Source: Candidatus Latescibacterota bacterium (GTDB lineage: Bacteria; Latescibacterota; UBA2968). From it: 64,000 nucleotides of DNA. Within the stretch, counting starts at the first letter, position 1. Each line of letters starts with the position of its first letter. Positions 48,846 through 61,384 of this stretch are shown here, piece after piece. Location: positions 372,001 through 436,000 of the forward strand of contig JAJEHL010000049.1 of the NCBI GenBank assembly GCA_022823725.1. Direction: 5' to 3'. The notes under the pieces are model-generated. The model had not been told where the DNA came from, made no database searches, and saw only the letters and a list, made by a program, of their open reading frames with translations. The translations under genes were made by a program, and so were the position numbers.

Positions 48846-49868
48846 ATGAGAGAGAGCGATACGCGCTGTTTTGCGGGGTTGGACATCGGTGGGACGAGTG
48901 TAAAATCCATTCTCGTCGATGCTTCTGGCAATTTATTGGGCGATATGGTGGAGGTGCCCAGTCGCGTCAAAGAAGGGTATGAGGCTACGTTTGTACAGCT
49001 TGAGGAAGCACTTAAGTTATTGACGGATCGCGTGGGGAGGCGTCAATCGGATATCGCGGGTATTGGGCTGGATGTGCCTGCGCCGAGTAGCAGTGGGGTG
49101 ATTCGGGTGCAGGCCAATCTGGGTGCGGATTGGGTGGGGACGAATATTCGCGGCGAGTTTTCCGCGCGTGCGGGTGTGCCCGTGTATATGACGAATGATG
49201 GCAATGCAGCGGCGGCTGGTGAATACGCGGCGCGTCCGGATTCCGATGCGGGCCTTCTGCTTATCGCACCGGGAACGGGTTTGGGGGGTGGGTTGGTTTT
49301 GTCAGGCGGGCAGATTTACGAGGGAGCAAATGGTCTCGCGCTGGAAGTGGGGCATGCTTCGGTTCCGTTTCGGGAGGTGGATGGGGAGTTGCCAGATTGT
49401 TCGTGTGGGCTGACGGGGTGTGCGGAGGCCTGGGTGTCGCTTATGGCATTGAGACGCAGGCTTGGGATTGAATTGGCGGGGGAGAAATGGAAGGATCACG
49501 CGCTGAATGCGTCTGATGCGTCGATTGAGGAAAAGGCGTATCAACTTCGCGATTACGCGGAAAAAGACGATCCGCTCGCGGTGGCGCTTTTTAAGGAGCA
49601 GGCATTTATTCTGGGTTATGCAATAGCGAATTGGGTGCGGTTATTCGATCCGGGGCTTGTGGTGATCGGTGGAGGGCTTTCAGAAGCGTCTTTTCGCGAT
49701 CAGTATATGGCATGGGTGATTGAAGGATTTGAGGATGGGTCGTGGCCGATCTATCTCGAAAATCCCTTTGATGCTCAGGCTGTGTCAACGCAATTTGAAT
49801 GGGCGCGCGGTGGCGATTCTGCCGCTGCACTGGGTATGGCTTTTGTCGCGAGTGATGTGTTTGGGTAG
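48846..49868 (+). CDS. ROK-family sugar kinase (glucokinase/N-acetylmannosamine kinase-like)
   Basis: 340 residues. The ATP-binding block is AGLDIGGTSVKSILVD, the sugar-contact block is MTNDGNAAAAGE, and the second phosphate block is LLIAPGTGLGGGLV. The ROK zinc-binding cluster CSCGLTGCAE is intact, with EVGHASVP in the place of the usual E(I/L)GH. There is no DNA-binding N-terminus, so this is an enzyme, not a NagC-type repressor. It phosphorylates a hexose such as glucose or ManNAc (family knowledge). It follows the propeller gene by ten bases. Confidence 0.92.
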   Translation: MRESDTRCFAGLDIGGTSVKSILVDASGNLLGDMVEVPSRVKEGYEATFVQLEEALKLLTDRVGRRQSDIAGIGLDVPAPSSSGVIRVQANLGADWVGTNIRGEFSARAGVPVYMTNDGNAAAAGEYAARPDSDAGLLLIAPGTGLGGGLVLSGGQIYEGANGLALEVGHASVPFREVDGELPDCSCGLTGCAEAWVSLMALRRRLGIELAGEKWKDHALNASDASIEEKAYQLRDYAEKDDPLAVALFKEQAFILGYAIANWVRLFDPGLVVIGGGLSEASFRDQYMAWVIEGFEDGSWPIYLENPFDAQAVSTQFEWARGGDSAAALGMAFVASDVFG

Positions 49869-49911
49869 GTATAAAGAAGACGGTTGTACACCACATCAGA
49901 AAGGGTATTAT

Positions 49912-52578
49912 ATGTTTTTCAGGCGTTTTGGAAAAACTAAATATATGTTGATTTGCCACTTGCTGGCTATCGCTGTCGGCATGGCAATGGGGAAAGGTGA
50001 CGCGCAAGCCGCTAAAAATGCTGAGCAAGAGTTGGGAAGCGATGAACAAACGCTCTATGAACAACTCCACAACAGGCAGTTCCACCCTATGGTCAACAGT
50101 CTTCAGAACGACGTTTTAGATTCCTACAACTTGACCGCCCGCTTTCGCTCAAAAGGCGTTCACCTTTCTGCCACTGATGGCTCTATTGATCCGTTTGTGC
50201 AACAAGCCAAACTGACGGATTTGGACGGCGTAGTGACCCGATTGTCCGATACTCTGGGGTATTCAGTATCCGTAGATGGAAATATTGCTGTCGTGGGTGC
50301 TGATGGAGATGAGAACAACAGAGGCTCGGTGTATGTGTTCACGCATGATGGGGATGTGTGGACAGAAACGGCCAAGTTGGTCCCCACTGATGGCAAAGCC
50401 AATAACTTTTTCGGGCATACTGTGGATGTAGATGGAAACACCATCGTTGTGGGTAGCATCTACCAGGCGTATGTGTTCACGCATGATGGAGAGACCTGGA
50501 CAGAAACAGCCAGACTGTCCCTTGATATCAAACCAGATACCAATATTTGGACTGGTTTGGCATCTGTGTCTGTTTCAGATAGCACTATTGTTGTGAGTAC
50601 TTTTGGGGAGGACGATGATAGAGGCTCGGTGTATGTGTTTACGTATGATGGCGAGAAGTGGGCAGAAACGGTCGAGTTGGTCGCTTTCGATGGCGAAGCT
50701 CATGACCTCTTTGGTTATTCTGTCTCTGTGGATGGTCGCACCATTGTCGTGGGTGCTCAAGGGGATGATAGGCGCAGAGGCTCGGTGTATGTGTTTACGT
50801 ATGATGGTGAGAGGTGGGCAGAAACGGTCAAACTGGTCGCTTCCGATGGCGAAGCCTATGATCTCTTCGGGCAGTCTGTGTCCATTTCAGATGGCACCGT
50901 TGTCGTGGGTGCTCCAAGAGATGGCGACAAAGGCAGGGCCTCTGGTTCGGTATATGTGTTCACGTATGATGGCGGGATGTGGACAGAAACGGCCAAATTG
51001 ACTCCTAATGATGGTGAAGCCTATGATTATTTTGGGCATTCTATATCTGTGGATGGTCGCACCATTGCCGTGGGTACTGATAGGGATGGCGACAGCGGCA
51101 GGCTTTCTGGCTCTGCGTATGTGTTTACGTATGATGGTGGGGTGTGGGCAGAAACGATTAAGCTGACCGCTTCCGATGGCGAGGCCTATGACTTTTTGGG
51201 GCATTCTATATCTGTTTCAGAGGGTACCATTATTGTAGGTGCTTTTGGGGATGAGAATTATAGAGGGGCGGCGTATGTGTTTACGCAGGATGGTCAGATG
51301 TGGGGAGAAACGGCCAAGCTGATTGCCGCTGATAGTAATGGTTATTTTAGTAATGACTTCGGACATTCTTTGTTTGTGGATGGTCGCACCATTGTCGTGG
51401 GTGCTGATAGAGATAACGAAGGAAGAGGCTCTGCGTATGTGTTCACGTATGATGGCGAGACGTGGGTAGAAACGGCCACGCTGACGGCTTCCGATGGCGA
51501 GGCTCGTGACAATTTCGGGCATTCTATATCTGTGGATGATCGCACTATGGTAGTGAGTGCTCCAAGGGATGACGATGATAGAGGCTCTGCGTATGTGTTT
51601 ACGTATGATGGCGAGATGTGGACAGAAACGGCCAAGCTGACGGCTTCCGATGGCGAAGCCGATGACCATTTCGGGATTTCTGTATCTGTTTCAGGTAACA
51701 CCATTGTCGCAGGTGCTCAAGGGGATGATAGGCGGAGAGGTGCGGTGTATGTGTTTACGTATGATGGTGGGGTGTGGGCAGAAACGATCAAGTTGACGGC
51801 TTCCGATGGCGAGGCTCGTGACAGCTTTGGGAGGGCTGTTTCTATTTCAGGTAACACCATTGTCGCGGGTGCTCAAGGGGATGATAGGCGTAGAGGTGCG
51901 GTGTATGTATTCACGTATGATGGAGGGATGTGGACAGAAACGGCCAAGCTGACTGCCGCTGATGGTGAAGCCTATGACTTTTTTGGGCATTCTGTATCTG
52001 TGGATGGACGCACTGTTGTCGTGGGTACTGATAGGGACGCCGGCGTTGTCAGATTCTCTGGCTCTGCGTATGTGTTCACGTATGATGGTGAGATGTGGAC
52101 AGAAACGGCCAAGCTGATCGCAGCCGATGGCGAAGACCATGACCTTTTCGGGCATTCTGTGGATGTGTCTGGCCGCACCATTGTCATAGGTGCTTTTGGG
52201 GACTCCGACAATGGCGGGTTTTCTGGCTCTGCGTATGTGTTCACGTATGATGGTGAGATGTGGACAGAAACGGCCAAGCTAACCGCTGCCGATGGGATTG
52301 CCAATGACTTCTTCGGAGAGGCTGTGTCTGTGGATAGAGGCGTCGTAGTGGTTGGAGCACCCGGGGGCGACAATCGCATAGGCTCCGCGTATGTGTATCG
52401 CGTGCCACTGGTCGAGCGTGCGGATGTCGATGGCGATGGGGTTATTGGTATGTCAGATTTTCGTACATTTGCCGAGGCTTATGGAACGACTGATCTTCGG
52501 TTTGATTTTGATGAAGACGGAACAGTTGGTTTCTCTGATTTTCTGGTCTTTGTCAGCCTCTACAGTGAGTCTGCCTGA
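49912..52578 (+). CDS. Secreted FG-GAP repeat protein with C-terminal dockerin-like EF-hands
   Basis: 888 residues from ATG 49912 (AAAGGG seven bases upstream; the track start at 49720 lies in the ROK gene). A signal peptide (LICHLLAIAVGMAMG, cleavage near AQA) leads to a spacer (35-105). About 14 FG-GAP-like repeats of roughly 50-60 residues follow, each with a GSAYVFTYDGEMWTETAKL-type strand, a DGEAYDxFGHS turn and a VDGRTIVVGA strand. Fourteen repeats fit two seven-bladed propellers (inference). The C-terminus has two calcium loops (DVDGDGVIGMSDF, DFDEDGTVGFSDF), as in type I dockerin domains. It is probably surface-bound or secreted and involved in adhesion or assembly. Confidence 0.88.
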   Translation: MFFRRFGKTKYMLICHLLAIAVGMAMGKGDAQAAKNAEQELGSDEQTLYEQLHNRQFHPMVNSLQNDVLDSYNLTARFRSKGVHLSATDGSIDPFVQQAKLTDLDGVVTRLSDTLGYSVSVDGNIAVVGADGDENNRGSVYVFTHDGDVWTETAKLVPTDGKANNFFGHTVDVDGNTIVVGSIYQAYVFTHDGETWTETARLSLDIKPDTNIWTGLASVSVSDSTIVVSTFGEDDDRGSVYVFTYDGEKWAETVELVAFDGEAHDLFGYSVSVDGRTIVVGAQGDDRRRGSVYVFTYDGERWAETVKLVASDGEAYDLFGQSVSISDGTVVVGAPRDGDKGRASGSVYVFTYDGGMWTETAKLTPNDGEAYDYFGHSISVDGRTIAVGTDRDGDSGRLSGSAYVFTYDGGVWAETIKLTASDGEAYDFLGHSISVSEGTIIVGAFGDENYRGAAYVFTQDGQMWGETAKLIAADSNGYFSNDFGHSLFVDGRTIVVGADRDNEGRGSAYVFTYDGETWVETATLTASDGEARDNFGHSISVDDRTMVVSAPRDDDDRGSAYVFTYDGEMWTETAKLTASDGEADDHFGISVSVSGNTIVAGAQGDDRRRGAVYVFTYDGGVWAETIKLTASDGEARDSFGRAVSISGNTIVAGAQGDDRRRGAVYVFTYDGGMWTETAKLTAADGEAYDFFGHSVSVDGRTVVVGTDRDAGVVRFSGSAYVFTYDGEMWTETAKLIAADGEDHDLFGHSVDVSGRTIVIGAFGDSDNGGFSGSAYVFTYDGEMWTETAKLTAADGIANDFFGEAVSVDRGVVVVGAPGGDNRIGSAYVYRVPLVERADVDGDGVIGMSDFRTFAEAYGTTDLRFDFDEDGTVGFSDFLVFVSLYSESA
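50230..52400 (+). repeat. Coding tandem repeats (FG-GAP repeat units)
   Basis: About a dozen units of roughly 150-190 bases with near-identical DNA stretches such as GTGTTTACGTATGATGG and GGCTCTGCGTATGTGTT. The last units are closest to each other, which suggests recent duplication by unequal recombination. Units vary in the GDxxxR loop. Confidence 0.85.
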
Positions 52579-52659: not shown

Positions 52660-53205
52660 TCAAAAGAAGAATTTGAGGCCCGCATAGATCCGGTCCATGT
52701 CGGTGATGCTGTTGTCAGTAAAGATGAAGTCGTGTTTGTAGTCGAGTCCGATACGCACCCTTTTGTGGAGGACGATGTCTATGCCAGCGCCGGGTGCCAG
52801 ACCAAAGTTGCGACTGCCTTCATTGGGCGCATATAGACCGGCGTTGAGTGAGACGTGGTACACAAAGGGGTCAAAGGCGTAGGCGAAACGCGAGCCGAGG
52901 CTGAAGATGGACATGTCGCGGTCGGAAAGATAATTATAGCCCGCCTGAATGCCGATCCACTGGTCCATTTCAACGCCGAGTTCAAGTCCGTAGAGAAAAC
53001 CCGTACGCGTTTTACTGGCGTCCGTCAGGTCAAAAAATCCAGAGCCAAAGGCTGTGTTGAGATAGACGCGATGGCTCGGGCCACCAAAAGGGTATCCCCC
53101 TTTGCCAAATTCGCTTTCTTCTGCCCCATCAGTTCGCCCCGTTTGCGCGCTGGCACTGCTCCCCAAAAGTAAGGCGATTGCGAGTGTGAATAACAGGTGT
53201 TTCAT
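52660..53205 (-). CDS. Small outer-membrane beta-barrel protein
   Basis: 181 residues from ATG 53205 (AAAGGAG upstream; the track start at 53262 is too early). A signal peptide (LLFTLAIALLLGSSASAQ) is followed by alternating amphipathic strands (HRVYLNTAFGSGFFDL, GLELGVEMDQWIGIQAGYNYL, VRIGLDYKHDFIF). The C-terminal strand is RIYAGLKFFF, ending in phenylalanine as BAM-inserted barrels do. An eight-stranded OmpA/OmpW-like barrel is likely. Monocistronic. The 134-base gap upstream (53206-53339) holds T-rich and CCTTCCATCCTTTAATCC-like sequence that may belong to the dispersed repeat family. Confidence 0.8.
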   Translation of the reverse strand: MKHLLFTLAIALLLGSSASAQTGRTDGAEESEFGKGGYPFGGPSHRVYLNTAFGSGFFDLTDASKTRTGFLYGLELGVEMDQWIGIQAGYNYLSDRDMSIFSLGSRFAYAFDPFVYHVSLNAGLYAPNEGSRNFGLAPGAGIDIVLHKRVRIGLDYKHDFIFTDNSITDMDRIYAGLKFFF

Positions 53206-53339
53206 GGTTTTGCTCCTTTCTCGATCAGGATTAAAGGATGGAAGGATGTGCAGGATACCCAACCGCCCAACCCTTAATTTTTACTGCTCAATTCCCAATC
53301 CGTAATCCCCAACCTAATAATCTCAGGTCTCCAGCGCAA

Positions 53340-53927
53340 TTACAATCCTATGCTGCGCTTTTTGTAGGCTTTGCGGATTTCTTTTTCGTCTGTCCATATA
53401 ATTTCTGATGAGACCAGGTCCGTCAGTTGGAAGGTGGCTTTGTAGTAGATGAGTTTGTCTTTGCCAACTTCCTGTACATTCGCGCTGAGTGTGCCCGTGA
53501 GGATCAGGTCTGATCCGGTCTGTTTGCCCGGTGCTTTGGCCTGTGTGGGATCGACGTAGCCCGATTGTTGATATTCGTATTCTGTGGCGATGTCTTTGCG
53601 GTTGGTGACATCGACAAAGCGCACTTTGCCGCTCTGGATCAATGCGGTTTTGATTTTATCAGAGAGAGCTACCATGTCGATGTGTTCGGTGGTGCGATTG
53701 CGCATTTTGCCGAGCATGATGGCGGGTTCGGGCCTGTTCAATGGTGCTTTGAGGATTGAATCGACGACTTTTTTAGCGATGAGTTGCATGTCGTTTTCGT
53801 TAAAGCGGTCGTCGAGCAAGGCGATGGTTTTGGGGTCTTCATACGTCCCTTTTGTAAAGGCTCTGGGACCAGCGCATCCGGTCGTGAGACCGATCAGGGC
53901 GATTGCTGCATAGGTGATGAGTTTCAT
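53340..53927 (-). CDS. LpoB-like penicillin-binding-protein activator lipoprotein
   Basis: 195 residues. A lipoprotein signal ends in LTTGC (Cys about 18). The rest matches the LpoB fold: LMDDRF-like LLDDRFNENDMQLIAKK, PAIMLGKMRNRTTEHIDM, GSDLILTGTLSANVQEV and IYYKATFQLTDLVSSEIIW. In E. coli, LpoB is an outer-membrane lipoprotein that activates PBP1b during peptidoglycan synthesis. It is the last gene of the operon with the secreted and TPR lipoproteins at 54.0-56.2 kb. AAGGAG precedes ATG 53927. No PBP gene is in the window. Confidence 0.88.
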   Translation of the reverse strand: MKLITYAAIALIGLTTGCAGPRAFTKGTYEDPKTIALLDDRFNENDMQLIAKKVVDSILKAPLNRPEPAIMLGKMRNRTTEHIDMVALSDKIKTALIQSGKVRFVDVTNRKDIATEYEYQQSGYVDPTQAKAPGKQTGSDLILTGTLSANVQEVGKDKLIYYKATFQLTDLVSSEIIWTDEKEIRKAYKKRSIGL

Positions 53928-54032: not shown

Positions 54033-54845
54033 TTATCGCCATTCGCATTCCATGCGCGTGTCAATCATGTGCCATTTATCTGGCAAAACTACATCCTGTT
54101 TGTAGCGAATGTAGGCGCGGCAGTCTTGAATGGGTGAACTGACCGGGTAGTCCATTTGATATGTTTGAACCCGCGAGAGGTCTATCGTCGGTATCTCGTC
54201 GATTTGATGGATGCCCGGGCGCGAGGATGTAAATATCCGAACGGTTTTGCTGCCGTGTGTTTTGAGTGGGATTGTTCCCGAGAAGGTGACGCGCCGAATT
54301 TTTCGCGGGAGCAACGGGTCTGTGGCGTCGATCAGGGTGTCTCTTTTCCACTGTCCGGCGAGCACGGTGTTTAAGTCCGCAGTGAAGACGCGCTGGATCT
54401 CTCCATCGGGAATGATGACGTAGAGAAAGCGATGGCGCGCTGTTTTGGAAACGCCGTCAAAGGTCAGGTAAATGGTGAGGTTGAGCGATTGGTTGGGCGC
54501 GAGCGCGTGTTTGGAGATGGCCTGTATCACGACGGACTCGATACCGTCTTTTTTGAGTGCGATCAGTCCTTCGGCAGATGCATCGCCCGCATATCGCCGC
54601 TCGGAAATCATCTGTGCGATTTGGTCGGGTTTAAAGTCACTTTGTACCAATTGCAACAGGTCCTCACGGGTGAAGGGGAGTTGATCTGTGCGTTCATAAA
54701 CCGCGGGTAGTTCTCCGCCGTCCCATTCGACGAGGTTGACGACGATGCCCCGCGTGGGCGGCAGGTCTGATTTTGTCGCGTTTGCCGTTGAAACCAGCAG
54801 GCTGAGAACGATGAACAACAGAAGGCTTCGGTTTGAAATTTTCAT
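54033..54845 (-). CDS. Secreted protein of unknown function in the LpoB operon
   Basis: 270 residues. A signal peptide (LLLFIVLSLLVSTANA) precedes a region that reads like a helical sensor or binding segment (FTREDLLQLVQSDFKPDQIAQMISERRYAG). A beta-rich second half follows (LNLTIYLTFDGVSKTARHRFLYVIIPDGEIQ, KTVRIFTSSRPG). Two Cys residues lie near the end (DCRAYIRY, MECEWR). No known family is recognised. It lies between the TPR lipoprotein and LpoB genes, so a periplasmic role with them is likely. ATG 54845 has AAGGAGG ten bases upstream. Confidence 0.72.
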   Translation of the reverse strand: MKISNRSLLLFIVLSLLVSTANATKSDLPPTRGIVVNLVEWDGGELPAVYERTDQLPFTREDLLQLVQSDFKPDQIAQMISERRYAGDASAEGLIALKKDGIESVVIQAISKHALAPNQSLNLTIYLTFDGVSKTARHRFLYVIIPDGEIQRVFTADLNTVLAGQWKRDTLIDATDPLLPRKIRRVTFSGTIPLKTHGSKTVRIFTSSRPGIHQIDEIPTIDLSRVQTYQMDYPVSSPIQDCRAYIRYKQDVVLPDKWHMIDTRMECEWR

Positions 54846-54864: not shown

Positions 54865-56223
54865 TTATTGATAAACTCTGTGATTCAAGAACGTGCGTTG
54901 ACCGGGTTTGATTTCGATATTGGTAAATGTTTCGGTTTCGATAATGCGGCCGTTGGCGTCGAGTGCTTCGAGTGTGATGGTGTGGGTGCCTGGTGGCAGT
55001 TCGAGGCGGCCGATTTGAATATTGTGGGGCAAGGAGACCCAACTGCGCGTATCGGCGATTTCGGTTGAGATGTTGAACAGGTTGACGAAGAAACCGAGGA
55101 TTTCATTTTCATCTTTGGCCTCTCGGTGGGCTATGTATTTCACAAGCCCGCGTGCAATTGTTCTGATCATAATCCTCGGGTAGTGATCCTGGAGCGATGT
55201 TTTTGCTATCGCGGCGTAATTTTGGGCGATCTGTGTCTGAATGGTGCGGTTTCCTGCGCGTATGAGAATGCGCTTTGTGCGGGGGGCGATGGCTTCGTAC
55301 TTGGGGAGGACGACGCGCAACCAGTATTCGACGTCGCGAATGGGATATACGCGGTGGCGGCGGTATGAGATTTCGGTGGCGATAGAAGATACTTTGTCGC
55401 CTTTGCTGTGTTTGATGTCTTCTTCGTAAATGGGGAGATCAATTTCCTCTTGCACTTTGCGGGGGATAAAACCGATTTCAGTAAAGATCACGAGTTCGCC
55501 ATTGCCCACAGGCGGTACAAAGGGCAGGATGTTGAGCGAGGCAAAGCGCATGTCGGTGCCCTCACCGTTGAGAATGTCATCTACCTGTTTGAGGTCTTTG
55601 GCGATGGTTTGAGGTGGGGCAGTGTGGAACTTTTTTTCGTAGTATGAATAGGCGTCTTGGGCGTGTCGATAGGAGACGCGGGCGTCGTTGAATTCGCCGG
55701 TGGCTTCGTAGAACAGGCCGGTGATGTAGTGAATGAAGGCGTCGTTTTTGTAACTCGTCTGTCCATTGTGAATGGCGTATTGGTCGAGTTTCAAATTGGC
55801 TTTTCGACATTCGACAAGGGCGTCTTCAGGGAGGCCCAGATACCAGTAGTTCAACGCGCGATAGTAGTGGACGGCAACCATTTCAAAGCTATCGCCGCGG
55901 TAGTTGCGTATGGCGTCGTTGGTCAAAAATGCGGCGGTTTCTCGGGAAACCGAGCGGGTATAGAGTCGATCTGATAGCCGCTCGGCTTCTGCAAAATAGC
56001 GGTTAGATGTTTCGTAGTGGCCCTGGTAGTGGGTGAGGAGACCATTTTCAAGGAGATAGAGCAATTGGTTGCCTCTTTTTCTCGACTTTTTGATTTTTGC
56101 ACGGGCATCTTCGTAATTGCGCGCGCGCAAGCTCGTGCGAAAGTCACCCGAAAAGTGCGAATAGGTGGCACAGCCGTGTAACGAGATCGCTATCAGAAGC
56201 ACTATGTAGTAAATTGATTTCAC
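54865..56223 (-). CDS. TPR-containing lipoprotein (COG3014-like)
   Basis: 452 residues from GTG 56223 (GGAG nine bases upstream). The lipobox is ISLHGC (Cys about 18). TPR-like helical pairs fill residues 30-230 (ARNYEDARAKIKKSRKRG, RALNYWYLGLPEDALVECRKA, GLFYEATGEFNDARVSYRHA). A beta-rich C-terminal half follows (LVIFTEIGFIPRKV, ITLEALDANGRIIETETF). Such proteins occur next to lpoB in several Gram-negative genomes. It is the first gene of the three-gene unit, directly downstream of a sigma-54 promoter. The 307-base gap to the next gene also holds repeat copy 3. Confidence 0.82.
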   Translation of the reverse strand: MKSIYYIVLLIAISLHGCATYSHFSGDFRTSLRARNYEDARAKIKKSRKRGNQLLYLLENGLLTHYQGHYETSNRYFAEAERLSDRLYTRSVSRETAAFLTNDAIRNYRGDSFEMVAVHYYRALNYWYLGLPEDALVECRKANLKLDQYAIHNGQTSYKNDAFIHYITGLFYEATGEFNDARVSYRHAQDAYSYYEKKFHTAPPQTIAKDLKQVDDILNGEGTDMRFASLNILPFVPPVGNGELVIFTEIGFIPRKVQEEIDLPIYEEDIKHSKGDKVSSIATEISYRRHRVYPIRDVEYWLRVVLPKYEAIAPRTKRILIRAGNRTIQTQIAQNYAAIAKTSLQDHYPRIMIRTIARGLVKYIAHREAKDENEILGFFVNLFNISTEIADTRSWVSLPHNIQIGRLELPPGTHTITLEALDANGRIIETETFTNIEIKPGQRTFLNHRVYQ

Positions 56224-56267
56224 CGCACTTTTCTCCGTTGAGGTTTTTGCGTGCGGTAAAAGTGTTC

Positions 56268-56284
56268 TGCAAATAGCGTGCCAA
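56268..56284 (-). promoter_or_regulatory. Sigma-54 (-24/-12) promoter of the TPR lipoprotein-LpoB operon
   Basis: Minus strand TTGGCACGCTATTTGCA matches the sigma-54 consensus TGGCACG-N4-TTGC without mismatch. The -12 GC is 45 bases from the GTG start, so transcription would begin about 33 bases upstream of it. Use of this promoter needs an enhancer-binding activator, none of which is encoded in the window. Confidence 0.75.
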
Positions 56285-56389
56285 TCGGGGTGAATTATTT
56301 TAAGTTATTTAATTACAATAAGATATGGAAATGGGGAAAAGGAGAGATATGTAGCGCAATGGCACAGGTGTGAATTTTTGCAACAGTTT

Positions 56390-56530
56390 GGAAGGCAATC
56401 CGCAGATGACGCAGATGAAAGGCGAGCGTGGATTAAACGGATTTAAGGGGCGTGCGAATGAGATAGAACATAGGGGCGACCCGTTGTAAACCGCTCTTGG
56501 TCACCCAACCAGTCCCTTGTATTCTATCCA
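56390..56530. repeat. Dispersed GCAGATG-type intergenic repeat, copy 3
   Basis: Contains CAATCCGCAGATGACGCAGA, then GGATTAAACGGATTTAAGGG, then a GGGGCGACCCGTT segment. Sequence of the same style (CCATCGGTGG, minus strand CCACCGATGG) runs into the last codons of the PMT-like gene, so the repeat may have changed its C-terminus. Confidence 0.55.
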
Positions 56531-58672
56531 TCAGTGTCCATCGGTGGTTACAATTTTCAGTTGCTTAATCGTTGTTTCTACAGGTACAAGAGAGGCGGAT
56601 ATATCAGGGAGATTCTCTATTTGGACTGAAACGCGCTGGTCTTTTAGGAGGAAAAAAAAGGCGTCCATTTGAGCGAAGTGCTCTGTTGGGATGAATATTT
56701 GTTGTGTTAAGAGTGCCTGGTCCGCAAAGATTGAAACCCTGATACTCGCATGTTCGCGGAATGCGCTCAGGCGTTTTACTGTGATTCTCGTTTCGTATTC
56801 TCCAAAGGCAAAGCTTTGTGATCGCTCTGGTGTCGCAGGTTTTTTTGCTTGAAATGTGAACAGGTATTTTCCGGGTTTCAGGTCATAAGTCGGGGTTGTT
56901 ATGACGCCTTCGCGAAGTGTTGCGGTATTGCGGATGTTGATTTGTACGCCTGTGGGAGATAGCTTGCAGGTGTCAAATGCAATAGTGCCGGGGTGCAACG
57001 GTTCGTGCGGTATCTGATTTGCGATGATCAGCGAGGGACTTGTGGAAAATACATCGAGCATGGTTGCGGCATTTTGTTTGATGTAACCTTTTCCAATATT
57101 TTGTTCGATATAATTGTTCTCGATGTATTGCAGAATATGCTCGTCGGAGATTTTGTCGATGATTGCCTGTTTTGTCTGTATTTCCTCATTGTGATAAGTG
57201 TAAATTTGAGATACTTCGGCTGGCAAGACATAGTGTGTGCGGTCTCGATTTTGTTCCGCGCTCATTATTTCAATGGGTTGTATCGCATAGTCGTATTTTA
57301 ATCTGTCGAGGTCTTGTTCGTGAATACGCAGTTCTCTGGCAAAGACGATTTTTTGCACATCTTCCATCGCGTTGAGCGTATCTATGACTGCGCTTCTGGT
57401 ATCTCTGGTGTTGTGCAATACCCAGCCCGTTTGATAGGCGTCATAGGCGTGCGGTAGTAAAATGAGCGAGGCTGCGAGACATATAATCGGAATTGATTTT
57501 TTGAGCTTTGGATAAAAGTGTACCAATGCCACATGCAGATTGTGAAAAGCAACACCTGCAAAAACGGCGATAAATGGGTACACCTGTATAAAATTGCGGT
57601 GGAAATTGACGGTCATGTCGCTCATAAATAAAAGATAGATCACGGGAAATAATATGATCAGGAGCAATATCGGTCGGGAAATTGTCCCCGCCAGACCGAT
57701 TGCAAACAGGATGGTGCCGGTTAGTCCGATGTTCTGGTAAAATTCTCGTATTTGAAACGCAAAATAATCCCATCCAGGGCTGATTGTGGCGCCTGGGTGT
57801 CCCGTAGTTTTGTAGTATGTAATTTGATGTAAAATGTCTTTGATAAAAGTTGGGAAGTCGAGAATTGCATAGGGCATGATGAGGAAGAAAGTCACCGTGG
57901 GTAGGCAGGGGATCGCGAGCCAGTAAAATTTTTGGCGTGGAATTTTATCCCGATAGGACATCCAGGTCAGCGATGCAATGGGGAGCAAAATTGCGAGGCC
58001 CGAATTGTATTTTGTCGCTGTGGCAAATCCTACGCATATTAAGCTAAAGATGAAATAGATGATTTTTTTTTGGTCGATGAACAAAATGGAGAATAGGGCG
58101 GCAAGCGAGACAAATAGGGCGACTGGTGCGTCCATTGTTACAAAACCCGAATGAACTATGTGGATCGATAGAACAGATAAAAAAAGGGCCGATATGATGC
58201 CCGTCCATCTGTTGCATATCGTCTTGCTGATTAAATAGGTGATAAATACTGTTGCGGTACCCATTGTGGCAGTCAAAAGACGATTCCAAAAATAAAAGTT
58301 CGGATGAGATATCGTCCAGTGCCAGCCAGTATCGGCTGCAATGCGTATGTTTGCTAAGCTTGACAAATTGCCTGTGAATGAGAGATAAATACGGTATAAC
58401 TGATCAACTAACAGATTTAAATAAATCATCAGAGAACCGTACTTAAAAAAATGGGGGTTGTAATCCCCCGTTTTCATTATCTGAAGCGCGTTGCTGGCCG
58501 TAAGTGGTTCATCCCAAAAATACAAATAGGGCAAACCGATGTTTAATTGGAAATATCGAAAGATAAATGCAAAGAAGATGACGAGGAGGATGATAGATGT
58601 GAAATAGTGCTTCACTATCGCAGGGAGGATAACGGGAAAATTGGCTTTAACGGACGCGAGAAAATCACCCAT
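56531..58672 (-). CDS. PMT/GT39-like membrane glycosyltransferase
   Basis: 713 residues with about 11-12 membrane helices in the first 420 residues and a soluble C-terminal domain. YFWDEPLTA near residue 53 carries the catalytic Asp-Glu of GT-C transferases (PMT, ArnT type). NFYFWNRLLTATMGTATVF and SGFVTMDAPVALF are typical of dolichyl-P-mannose-type transferases. It transfers a sugar from a polyprenyl-phosphate donor on the periplasmic side. The C-terminal half (from about 480) has a beta-rich region like a carbohydrate-binding module. Its first bases overlap the preceding gene by eight bases. Confidence 0.82.
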   Translation of the reverse strand: MGDFLASVKANFPVILPAIVKHYFTSIILLVIFFAFIFRYFQLNIGLPYLYFWDEPLTASNALQIMKTGDYNPHFFKYGSLMIYLNLLVDQLYRIYLSFTGNLSSLANIRIAADTGWHWTISHPNFYFWNRLLTATMGTATVFITYLISKTICNRWTGIISALFLSVLSIHIVHSGFVTMDAPVALFVSLAALFSILFIDQKKIIYFIFSLICVGFATATKYNSGLAILLPIASLTWMSYRDKIPRQKFYWLAIPCLPTVTFFLIMPYAILDFPTFIKDILHQITYYKTTGHPGATISPGWDYFAFQIREFYQNIGLTGTILFAIGLAGTISRPILLLIILFPVIYLLFMSDMTVNFHRNFIQVYPFIAVFAGVAFHNLHVALVHFYPKLKKSIPIICLAASLILLPHAYDAYQTGWVLHNTRDTRSAVIDTLNAMEDVQKIVFARELRIHEQDLDRLKYDYAIQPIEIMSAEQNRDRTHYVLPAEVSQIYTYHNEEIQTKQAIIDKISDEHILQYIENNYIEQNIGKGYIKQNAATMLDVFSTSPSLIIANQIPHEPLHPGTIAFDTCKLSPTGVQINIRNTATLREGVITTPTYDLKPGKYLFTFQAKKPATPERSQSFAFGEYETRITVKRLSAFREHASIRVSIFADQALLTQQIFIPTEHFAQMDAFFFLLKDQRVSVQIENLPDISASLVPVETTIKQLKIVTTDGH

Positions 58673-60269
58673 TAGATAAATCCTCTGCGCGCTTTTGTGC
58701 GATGAGTAGAAAATTCCACGCCTCGCTCTCCACGCGGTGCAAGCGATCTAAAAATAGAGCACCGAGTTGGACGACAAAAAATCCAACGCGCACAAAGGGG
58801 ATTAGAGGACCGCGCTCAAAACGCGCCAGATAATAACAGAATCGCGTCCCGGCTGTGACCCAAAATCCCGCAAGTGCTCGCGTTGCATGGACGGTCAGGC
58901 CCGATTGCTCAGCGAGATAGCGCAATCCATAAGGCGTAAATCGAAAATAATCGTGGGGGACTTCGTGCAAACCCCAAATATGGGGTGCGGTGAGAATCAA
59001 GTAGCCATTCGGTCGCAATACGCGTGCCATTTCGTCAATCGCCAATTGGGGATGCGGCACATGTTCCAGAACCTGATTGCACAACACGGTATCGCAGGTC
59101 CCATCTCGAAAGGGGAGGGCCAATACATCGCCCCACACGTCGGCGTGCTCATATCGCGTGCGTCCTTTTTCCAGGCCGATGTATTGTTGTACGCGCGACC
59201 CAAAAATGCCGACATAAGGCTTATTGCCACACCCTGCATCCAGCAATTTTCCACTTACAAATCCTTTTACTTCGTCCATTGTCTGACGCATTGTGCGGTG
59301 GATCAACCAGTTTTTGCCAAATAGGCCAACCGGGCGTCCATCGCATCCATCGCGTTCCATATCCACGCGCGACAATCCCTTCCACGCACCAATGGCGAGA
59401 CACGCAACACCAACCAGACTGATCCAGTTTCCCAGGGCGAACACGAGGGCCAGACCACCCAAAACAATGCCTGTCAGCCACATCAGAGCGACTGCTGCAC
59501 GCACTGGTAGTCCCCATTGTATCAATCGCTGTGCGACGTGGTCTCGGCTGGGTCGGACAATGGATCGACCTTTGGCAAATCGGATCGCACTGATAAATAC
59601 TGCTTCAAATATGGGTAGGCCCAGGGCGACCAAAGGTCCGATGACGCCCATAAGGCCGCCAATATGATTTGCGACAGAAACAGCCATACTACTCAGCAAA
59701 AAGCCAATTAACAGGCTTCCGGTGTCGCCCATCAGGATGCGGGCGGGGTGAAAATTGTGTACTAAATATCCCGTGAGTGCGCCCGCTGTTACGAGTGCCC
59801 AATCACCAGCACTTATCAACCACAAACTCAGCGAAGCAATGGTTCCACTGCCCGCCGAAAGGCCGTCTTCCATGTCCAGAACATTGAACGCATGGCACAT
59901 CCAGACCATCCACAACGCGGTCAGTGTGGCGTCTATCCAGATAATATTTGTGAGATGGATACGCGGGCCAAGCCAGGCGGCAATGCCCGCAACTGCAAGG
60001 GTCAATGCAAATTTGTGTAGCGGCGCAAAAGGCTTCCGGTCGTCTAATATGCCGATAAATGCCATTCCTACAGCACCGATAACGAGGCCTAATGGAAGGG
60101 ATTGAGGCAAGAACCAGAAGCCACAAAAAAGAGCGGCCAGCAAAGCTGTACCGCCCAGAGTTGAAACAGGCGCGTCGGGCGCATCAAAACGGCGTGCTAT
60201 CAGGCGCGCAACCGCCGTGAATAAAGCCGATAGAATTGCGGTAATACCAAATAAGATAACGGGCGTCAA
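58665..60269 (-). CDS. Fusion: undecaprenyl-phosphate sugar-1-phosphate transferase (WecA/MraY-like) with SAM methyltransferase
   Basis: 534 residues from TTG 60269, with AAGG six bases upstream and eight bases after the DegT stop; the track start at 60371 lies inside DegT. Residues 1 to about 300 form a multi-helix GlcNAc/MurNAc-1-P transferase domain, with FNVLDMEDGLSAGSG and ARILMGDTGSLLIGF holding the catalytic Asp residues. From about 345 a class I methyltransferase follows: motif I LLDAGCGNKPYVG, the PFRDGTCDTVLCNQVLEHV block and MARVLRPNGYLI. The first half starts lipid-linked glycan synthesis at the inner membrane; the second would methylate a product or sugar. Confidence 0.88.
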   Translation of the reverse strand: MTPVILFGITAILSALFTAVARLIARRFDAPDAPVSTLGGTALLAALFCGFWFLPQSLPLGLVIGAVGMAFIGILDDRKPFAPLHKFALTLAVAGIAAWLGPRIHLTNIIWIDATLTALWMVWMCHAFNVLDMEDGLSAGSGTIASLSLWLISAGDWALVTAGALTGYLVHNFHPARILMGDTGSLLIGFLLSSMAVSVANHIGGLMGVIGPLVALGLPIFEAVFISAIRFAKGRSIVRPSRDHVAQRLIQWGLPVRAAVALMWLTGIVLGGLALVFALGNWISLVGVACLAIGAWKGLSRVDMERDGCDGRPVGLFGKNWLIHRTMRQTMDEVKGFVSGKLLDAGCGNKPYVGIFGSRVQQYIGLEKGRTRYEHADVWGDVLALPFRDGTCDTVLCNQVLEHVPHPQLAIDEMARVLRPNGYLILTAPHIWGLHEVPHDYFRFTPYGLRYLAEQSGLTVHATRALAGFWVTAGTRFCYYLARFERGPLIPFVRVGFFVVQLGALFLDRLHRVESEAWNFLLIAQKRAEDLSNG

Positions 60270-60277
60270 AACATACC

Positions 60278-61384
60278 TTAGGGTTGAAAGTCGCGCACGG
60301 CTGCGATGACTTGTCCAATTTCGTTTTCGGTCATGCTTGGGAACAAGGGCAGCGTGACCAGATCGCGCCACACAGCATCGGTGACAGGCAAGTCTGTGCG
60401 ATAGGGTTTGTACACTTCAAATAAATGGCAGGGTTTGTAGTGTACGCCCGCGTCGATATTGTGCTGCACCAGATGATCTATCAATTCATCGCGTTGGGAC
60501 ACGCGTGCCACATAAGCGTGCATTGCACTGCGAACATGGGGTTTTTCTACGGGTGTTTGTATCCAGTCGAAGGCGGCAAAAGCACGTCCATATTCCAAAA
60601 AAATCTCTCGGCGTTGTGCATTGGCTGACTCCAATTTACCCAATTGCACCAGCCCAATTGCCGCATTGAGATCGTTCATATAGCATTTATAGCCGAGTTC
60701 GCCTACTTCGTATTCCCATCGGCGCTCTGCGCCATTTTTTCGAAAACGATCATAAGTGCCGCGCGAAATGCCCATCCAGCGCAATTTTCGCGCGCGTTCG
60801 GCGAGGTCTGAATTATTGGTGGTCAACATTCCACCGTCACAGGTTGACAAATTTTTGCGCGCATCAAAACTAAAACACGTCACTGTGCCCACACCGCCGA
60901 TCATCCGATCTTTGTAACGCGCGCCACTGGCGTGTGCGGCGTCTTCCACAACTGGAATCCCATTTGCAATGGATAGAATCTCATCCATGTCGCAGGGGTG
61001 CCCGGCAAAATGCACGACCATTATCGCCCGGGTGCGCGGCGTGATCTTAGCGGCAATTGCTTTTGGATCGATATTGAGTGTTTCGGGATCTATGTCGCAA
61101 AAAACCGGTGTGGCTCCATTTTGCAAAATTGCGTGATTGGTTGAGACAAAGGTCAGCGGTGTGGTAATGACCTCGCCTCCTTCGATATCCAGTATTTTTA
61201 GAGCCAACAGAAGTGCTGCAGAGCACGAGTTGACAGATACGGCGTGTTGTGCCCCCACATAATGGGCAAATCGCGCTTCGAGTTCTTCGACTTTTTCCCC
61301 GGGCCCAACCCAACCGGACATCAATACCTCGCGGACAGCTTCGACTTCTGCGTCGTCAAACCAGGGACGAAAAATGGGAATCAT
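60278..61384 (-). CDS. DegT/DnrJ/EryC1/StrS-family PLP sugar aminotransferase
   Basis: 368 residues from ATG 61384 (overlaps the glycosyltransferase stop as ATGA; the track start is inside that gene). Family blocks: N-terminal PIFRPWFDDAEVEAV, SGWVGPGEKVEELEARFA, VEDAAHASGARYK (PLP-ring Asp148) and FSFDARKNLSTCDGGM with the Schiff-base Lys177. The usual GEGG reads CDGG here. Such enzymes aminate 3- or 4-keto-nucleotide sugars for surface glycans. Tight packing in the cluster supports that role. The exact sugar is unknown. Confidence 0.9.
   Translation of the reverse strand: MIPIFRPWFDDAEVEAVREVLMSGWVGPGEKVEELEARFAHYVGAQHAVSVNSCSAALLLALKILDIEGGEVITTPLTFVSTNHAILQNGATPVFCDIDPETLNIDPKAIAAKITPRTRAIMVVHFAGHPCDMDEILSIANGIPVVEDAAHASGARYKDRMIGGVGTVTCFSFDARKNLSTCDGGMLTTNNSDLAERARKLRWMGISRGTYDRFRKNGAERRWEYEVGELGYKCYMNDLNAAIGLVQLGKLESANAQRREIFLEYGRAFAAFDWIQTPVEKPHVRSAMHAYVARVSQRDELIDHLVQHNIDAGVHYKPCHLFEVYKPYRTDLPVTDAVWRDLVTLPLFPSMTENEIGQVIAAVRDFQP

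Follow-up and report, generated by a model that had tools for sequence, protein, structure and literature searches.

The closest described counterparts of the promoter analysed here are the canonical sigma-54 promoters dependent on NtrC or NifA, in which a core promoter is combined with an upstream activating sequence (UAS) and an IHF bend. The locus in Candidatus Latescibacterota resembles them in its core, in an enhancer about 110 bp upstream of the start, in an AT-rich, IHF-like spacer and in its phased spacing, but differs in the sequence of the UAS and in having a lipoprotein/LpoB operon as the target. To our knowledge, this UAS, TTCACANNTGTGC with CTGTTG upstream, matches no known site of an enhancer-binding protein (EBP). 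The type of site is ordinary, and the target and a probable dedicated activator are the unusual parts.

LpoB of E. coli is an activator of PBP1B, and it docks on the part of PBP1B known as UB2H. In P. aeruginosa, the TPR lipoprotein LpoP activates PBP1B (PMC7267771). The operon studied here is similar in that it encodes a member of the LpoB family, above the curated cut-off, together with a TPR lipoprotein; however, no UB2H was found in this genome, and no solved structure was matched by the sequence of the TPR protein.

With regard to regulation, NtrYX of Rhodobacter sphaeroides acts on envelope genes, including peptidoglycan genes and one for a putative lipoprotein (PMC7240162). The candidate system described below likewise has an NtrC-family regulator with an adjacent kinase, and its presumed target would also be an envelope operon. 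More broadly, sigma-54 has been argued to be a general controller of the bacterial exterior, including peptidoglycan precursors (Francke et al., 2011; PMC3162934). The present operon fits this general pattern, in which sigma-54 governs genes for the envelope, for lipoproteins and for peptidoglycan precursors, although the text of Francke et al. (2011) names neither LpoB nor Latescibacterota. An earlier report of LpoB under sigma-54 was not found in our literature search, which included a 2025 survey of sigma-54 (PMC12316311).

The window, i.e., the whole 64,000-nt stretch of DNA that was analysed, carries the promoter in a 307-bp gap between a PMT_2-type glycosyltransferase ORF (56531-58672, minus strand, the same strand as the operon) and the TPR-lipoprotein ORF, which starts with GTG at 56223 on the minus strand. 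The features are as follows.

52660..53262, minus strand: probable operon gene 4, beta-barrel outer-membrane protein (PF13505, E 4.6e-7; gene order kept in Latescibacterota relatives)
53340..53927, minus strand: operon gene 3, LpoB lipoprotein, 195 aa (PF13036, E 2.6e-36; TIGR02722)
54033..54845, minus strand: operon gene 2, secreted protein, 270 aa (ORF; syntenic in Latescibacterota loci)
54865..56223, minus strand: operon gene 1, 452-aa TPR lipoprotein with a GTG start and the lipobox LHGC (ORF; weak TPR_2 match)
about 56257, minus strand: predicted site of transcription initiation (+1), 12 nt beyond the -12 C (from sigma-54 promoter geometry)
56269..56283, minus strand: sigma-54 core promoter TGGCACGCTATTTGC, -24/-12 (exact match; conserved in relatives)
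56292..56325, minus strand: AT-rich block TATCTTATTGTAATTAAATAACTTAAAATAATTC in the spacer from promoter to enhancer, where IHF/HU probably bends the DNA (conserved in genus)
56347..56387, minus strand: putative UAS ACTGTTGCAAAAATTCACACCTGTGCCATTGCGCTACATAT, dyad CACA-CC-TGTG, centre 84-85 bp from TGG (conserved across families)
59015-59029, minus strand: second perfect sigma-54 match, judged to be due to chance (inside coding frame 58665-60371)

The perfect match to TGGCACG-N4-TTGC that a sequence-only reading had placed ahead of the lipoprotein operon was borne out, with the GG and GC dinucleotides of the -24/-12 elements correctly spaced. Transcription from the predicted start would give a 34-nt leader with a GGAG ribosome-binding site before the GTG.

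That reading had also proposed a search of the genome for rpoN, EBPs and further copies of the motif. The search located rpoN (C40:20806, E 1.8e-59), and thus its absence, which would speak against the promoter, is excluded; it also returned 20 full EBPs and 29 exact matches to TGGCACG-N4-TTGC, compared with 2 for the reversed control. A looser form, TGGCAY-N5-TTGC, gave 86 matches vs. 15 for its reversed control. Most of the 29 exact matches sit 10-60 bp ahead of an ORF start, and 11 of them fall in open frames of at least 150 codons, vs. 83% of random positions from the same loci. The other sigma-54 sites adjoin genes whose products, read from the sequence by eye, include PspA (beside an EBP), an MscS-type channel, Hsp20, FtsX/MacB-type permeases and PTS IIA, and these neighbours indicate that the motif marks a genuine sigma-54 regulon with an envelope and stress flavour. 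The earlier remark that cell-wall synthesis factors are not usual sigma-54 targets was therefore overstated, given both these sites, which lead into envelope and stress genes, and the published argument (PMC3162934).

Several of these other promoters have upstream regions in common. Two paralogous AAA-ATPase genes with sigma-54 promoters (L030 and L048; G000:C2:602221 and C40:138011) are preceded by arrays of TGTTTCATTTGAAACA palindromes, which appear to be a second clear enhancer family. Repeats resembling TGTCCGAAAACGGACA recur at the sigma-54 promoters L029, L032, and L039, which precede genes for FtsX/MacB-type permeases and ABC ATPases, and FtsX-like permeases under sigma-54 have been reported (PMC12316311). 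Three further sigma-54 promoters (L041, L043, and L051) have near-identical upstream regions; at L043 the gene for a 65-aa peptide lies ahead of one for a radical-SAM/SPASM-like protein (read by eye), an arrangement like that of RiPP clusters, and genes for large EBPs whose N-terminal part is TPR-like are located near L041 and L043.

The locus was compared among relatives in Candidatus Latescibacterota, where f1 denotes the family of the window and f2 to f4 denote other families. The operon order TPR - secreted - LpoB - OMP is syntenic throughout Latescibacterota. Orthologues of the TPR lipoprotein occur in 38 of 41 relatives. LpoB adjoining a TPR gene recurs in Poribacteria and Eisenbacteria with the order swapped, and TPR/LpoB neighbours were seen also in a gammaproteobacterium. 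The core promoter precedes the orthologous operon in every readable genome of f1 and f2, which belong to the same order, and in f3 it is present with one mismatch (TGGCACGGGGCTTGA), while it is absent before the operon in the f4, Poribacteria and Eisenbacteria loci read. By comparison, rpoN is present in all 26 Latescibacterota genomes tested. The core does not vary among 10 genomes of the genus, where changes are confined to the N4 spacer (G008 carries TGGCACGCCTTTTGC at about -60), and it is kept across at least seven genera though the flanks no longer align between genera. The pair of UAS and promoter was found in 15/16 clade loci, in 0/33 loci outside the clade, and in 2 of 48,000 Markov shuffles. 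Promoter and enhancer appear to have been inherited as one unit, which either originated in a single Latescibacterota order or was retained there, with a degraded form in the third family, whereas the operon is older. Together with rpoN and the EBPs, this order-wide conservation supports the earlier suggestion that a sigma-54 promoter drives the TPR-lipoprotein/LpoB operon.

In the genus alignment, the UAS block (window 56347-56387) reads ACTGTTGyAAAAATTCACACCTGTGCC..., and in other genera and f2 it is recognisable as CTGTTG...TTCACANNTGTGC despite unalignable flanks. It is an irregular dyad. The distance from its centre to TGG is 81-86 bp in families and genera f1 and g7, respectively, but about one helical turn less (74 bp) in g6, so that this conserved block stands at a distance and phase suitable for an enhancer of a sigma-54 promoter. 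The sequence TTCACACCNGTGCC occurs once in the genome, and none of the 8 genome sites of TTCACANNTGTG, taken as possible further copies of the UAS, lies beside another sigma-54 site, i.e., no regulon-mate was found. Together, UAS and promoter have the anatomy of an EBP-activated promoter, with the UAS as the putative binding site of the EBP. As for the spacer, two other genera (L104 and L106) have a strict IHF consensus (WATCARN4TTR) at about -30 relative to TGG, whereas the AT-rich block of the window itself has only a two-mismatch match to this consensus; four HU/IHF-family genes are present in the genome.

The DNA on the far side of the UAS is variable. In the window, the stretch 56390-56530 contains a repeat-like CATCTGCGTCATCTGCGGATTG segment, present in some members of the genus and absent from others; this variable insertion does not reach into the UAS. 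In g2-g5, four other genera of the family (L073, L074, L103, and L104), a gene for a stand-alone receiver protein is oriented divergently to the operon and starts beside the UAS, where the window's own genus (g1) has the glycosyltransferase. This receiver protein was considered as an activator and rejected, since it has no sigma-54 domain and is absent at that place in g1.

Based on the conserved core and its phased enhancer, it is highly probable that the site is a working, enhancer-dependent sigma-54 promoter, a judgement that does not extend to the identity of the EBP. Two other readings of the same DNA deserve consideration. The 15-mer might be a chance match, with the operon driven from elsewhere, and the second perfect match in the window illustrates that chance matches do happen; because that copy lies inside a gene (59015), a sequence match by itself proves little. 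However, preservation of the core in at least seven genera with diverged flanks, the 29 vs. 2 enrichment and the shared enhancer make coincidence exceedingly improbable, and conservation appears to refute it to a high degree. Alternatively, the upstream block might be a second promoter of sigma-70 type (TTCACA-N17-CATAT), or some unrelated repressor or activator might bind there, since in the genus CATATC or CATATT follows TTCACA after 17 bp. We regard this as quite improbable: the -10-like hexamer is not retained in g2 or f2 while the TCACA-dyad stays, a site scan returned no sigma-70-like match on the minus strand within the gap (56224-56530), and the distance from the block to the sigma-54 core is constant except for a shift of one helical turn.

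Taking the site as an enhancer-dependent sigma-54 promoter, we hypothesize that sigma-54 RNA polymerase would bind TGGCACG-N4-TTGC and stay closed, while an EBP would bind the conserved UAS, which lies about 110 bp ahead of the start. IHF/HU would bend the AT-rich spacer that separates UAS and promoter, allowing the ATPase of the EBP to open the polymerase, and transcription of the genes for the TPR lipoprotein, the secreted protein, LpoB and the beta-barrel OMP might follow. In this scheme, we infer EBP-UAS binding, the bending of the DNA, the identity of the EBP, the inducing signal, and the function of the products.

No EBP adjoins the operon in any locus read. EBPs were compared across nine genomes, and in the five sampled genomes that carry the full UAS and promoter pair only 3 of the 20 EBPs, namely L002, L006, and L016, have reciprocal best hits in all five. 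L002 (C48:91754-93112) is a regulator of the receiver-AAA-Fis type, and its gene follows those for a HAMP histidine kinase, a DUF4390 protein and an Omp85/POTRA protein. Of 20 f1-f3 genomes, 19 carry an orthologue that is 65-100% identical and has the invariant recognition helix RTNLHKKI, whereas in the f4 genomes, which are without the UAS, the best L002-like proteins reach at most 47% and have other recognition helices; of the three universal EBPs, L002 is the only one without an orthologue in the enhancer-less f4. This profile amounts to a single phylogenetic split between f1-f3 and f4, in effect one event. Because the match of L002 to it rests on that one split, the chance that L002 activates the operon promoter seems a little short of even. 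In the 930-contig assembly G014, the UAS is present and the L002 orthologue was not found, and none of four loci read has a copy of the UAS near the operon of L002 itself.

L002 has the NtrX-type architecture (receiver, AAA and Fis-type HTH, with the kinase gene adjacent), but compared with the R. sphaeroides system it scores below the cut-off of the NtrX equivalog NF051870 (476.2 vs. 600 bits), and GCA-N9-TGC, the site proposed for R. sphaeroides NtrX, is not in the UAS as checked by eye. L002 resembles NtrX, NtrC and AtoC and falls under the cut-offs of all three; therefore, we call it NtrC/NtrX-like rather than NtrX.

The promoter could also be genuine and be activated by L006, an EBP with a pseudo-receiver, or L016, a receiver EBP encoded beside a histidine-kinase-like protein. 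Like L002, each of them has a reciprocal best hit in every one of the five sampled genomes that bear the UAS, and L006 adjoins a DegP/HtrA-type protease gene, which also suggests envelope stress. However, each also has such a hit in at least one f4 genome without the UAS (L016 at 56% in G037; L006 at 45-49%), and L016 was not found in f3, which retains a degraded UAS. Activation by either of the two is therefore possible but rather unlikely, and L002 is the most likely activator. Since L002 is co-encoded with the HAMP histidine kinase, DUF4390 and Omp85/POTRA proteins, a circuit run by it would make these lipoproteins respond to the state of the outer membrane. The most extended version of this proposal is that in Latescibacterota an Omp85/DUF4390-linked two-component system with an NtrC-family EBP acts through sigma-54 and an enhancer private to the target, switches on an operon of outer-membrane lipoproteins with an LpoB-type activator, and so links the assembly of the outer membrane to cell-wall synthesis; we offer it tentatively and consider it unlikely in this complete form.

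Family membership of the LpoB protein is supported by profile (TIGR02722, 135.2 bits vs. a cut-off of 110.55) and by its N-terminus (MKLITYAAIALIGLTTGCAG), which has a lipoprotein signal with the lipobox read by eye. Operon gene 2 matches no Pfam or NCBIfam family above cut-off, and the start of gene 4 is more likely near 53205. A profile search of the genome for the UB2H domain (PF14814), with a model that may miss distant UB2H, gave no match, and sequence searches of the PDB with LpoB and the TPR profile gave none either. The sequence-only reading had suggested that peptidoglycan regulation may be tied to a specific activator here. The private upstream element does point to one activator; the link to peptidoglycan is less secure, as no UB2H was found and the other operon members have no assigned role, and a role of the operon in peptidoglycan synthesis may be considered as a possible reading only.

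For a near-uncultured phylum, these analyses outline a concrete regulatory circuit consisting of a promoter, a phased enhancer, an operon and a short list of activators. An LpoB-family operon that is Latescibacterota-wide would have been put under stimulus-gated sigma-54 control in one order only, and such an operon under sigma-54 would support the view of sigma-54 as an envelope regulator. The approach also illustrates the reach of comparative genomics in assigning an enhancer to an EBP without culture.

Two minor observations concern the surroundings of the operon. A 952-aa protein encoded convergently with it (window 49720-52578, plus strand) has 14 FG-GAP_2 repeat stretches and an EF-hand-like C-terminal part. 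In the complete genome G007 of the genus (L101 7200-8102), about 900 bp separate gene 2 from LpoB, vs. about 100 bp in relatives.
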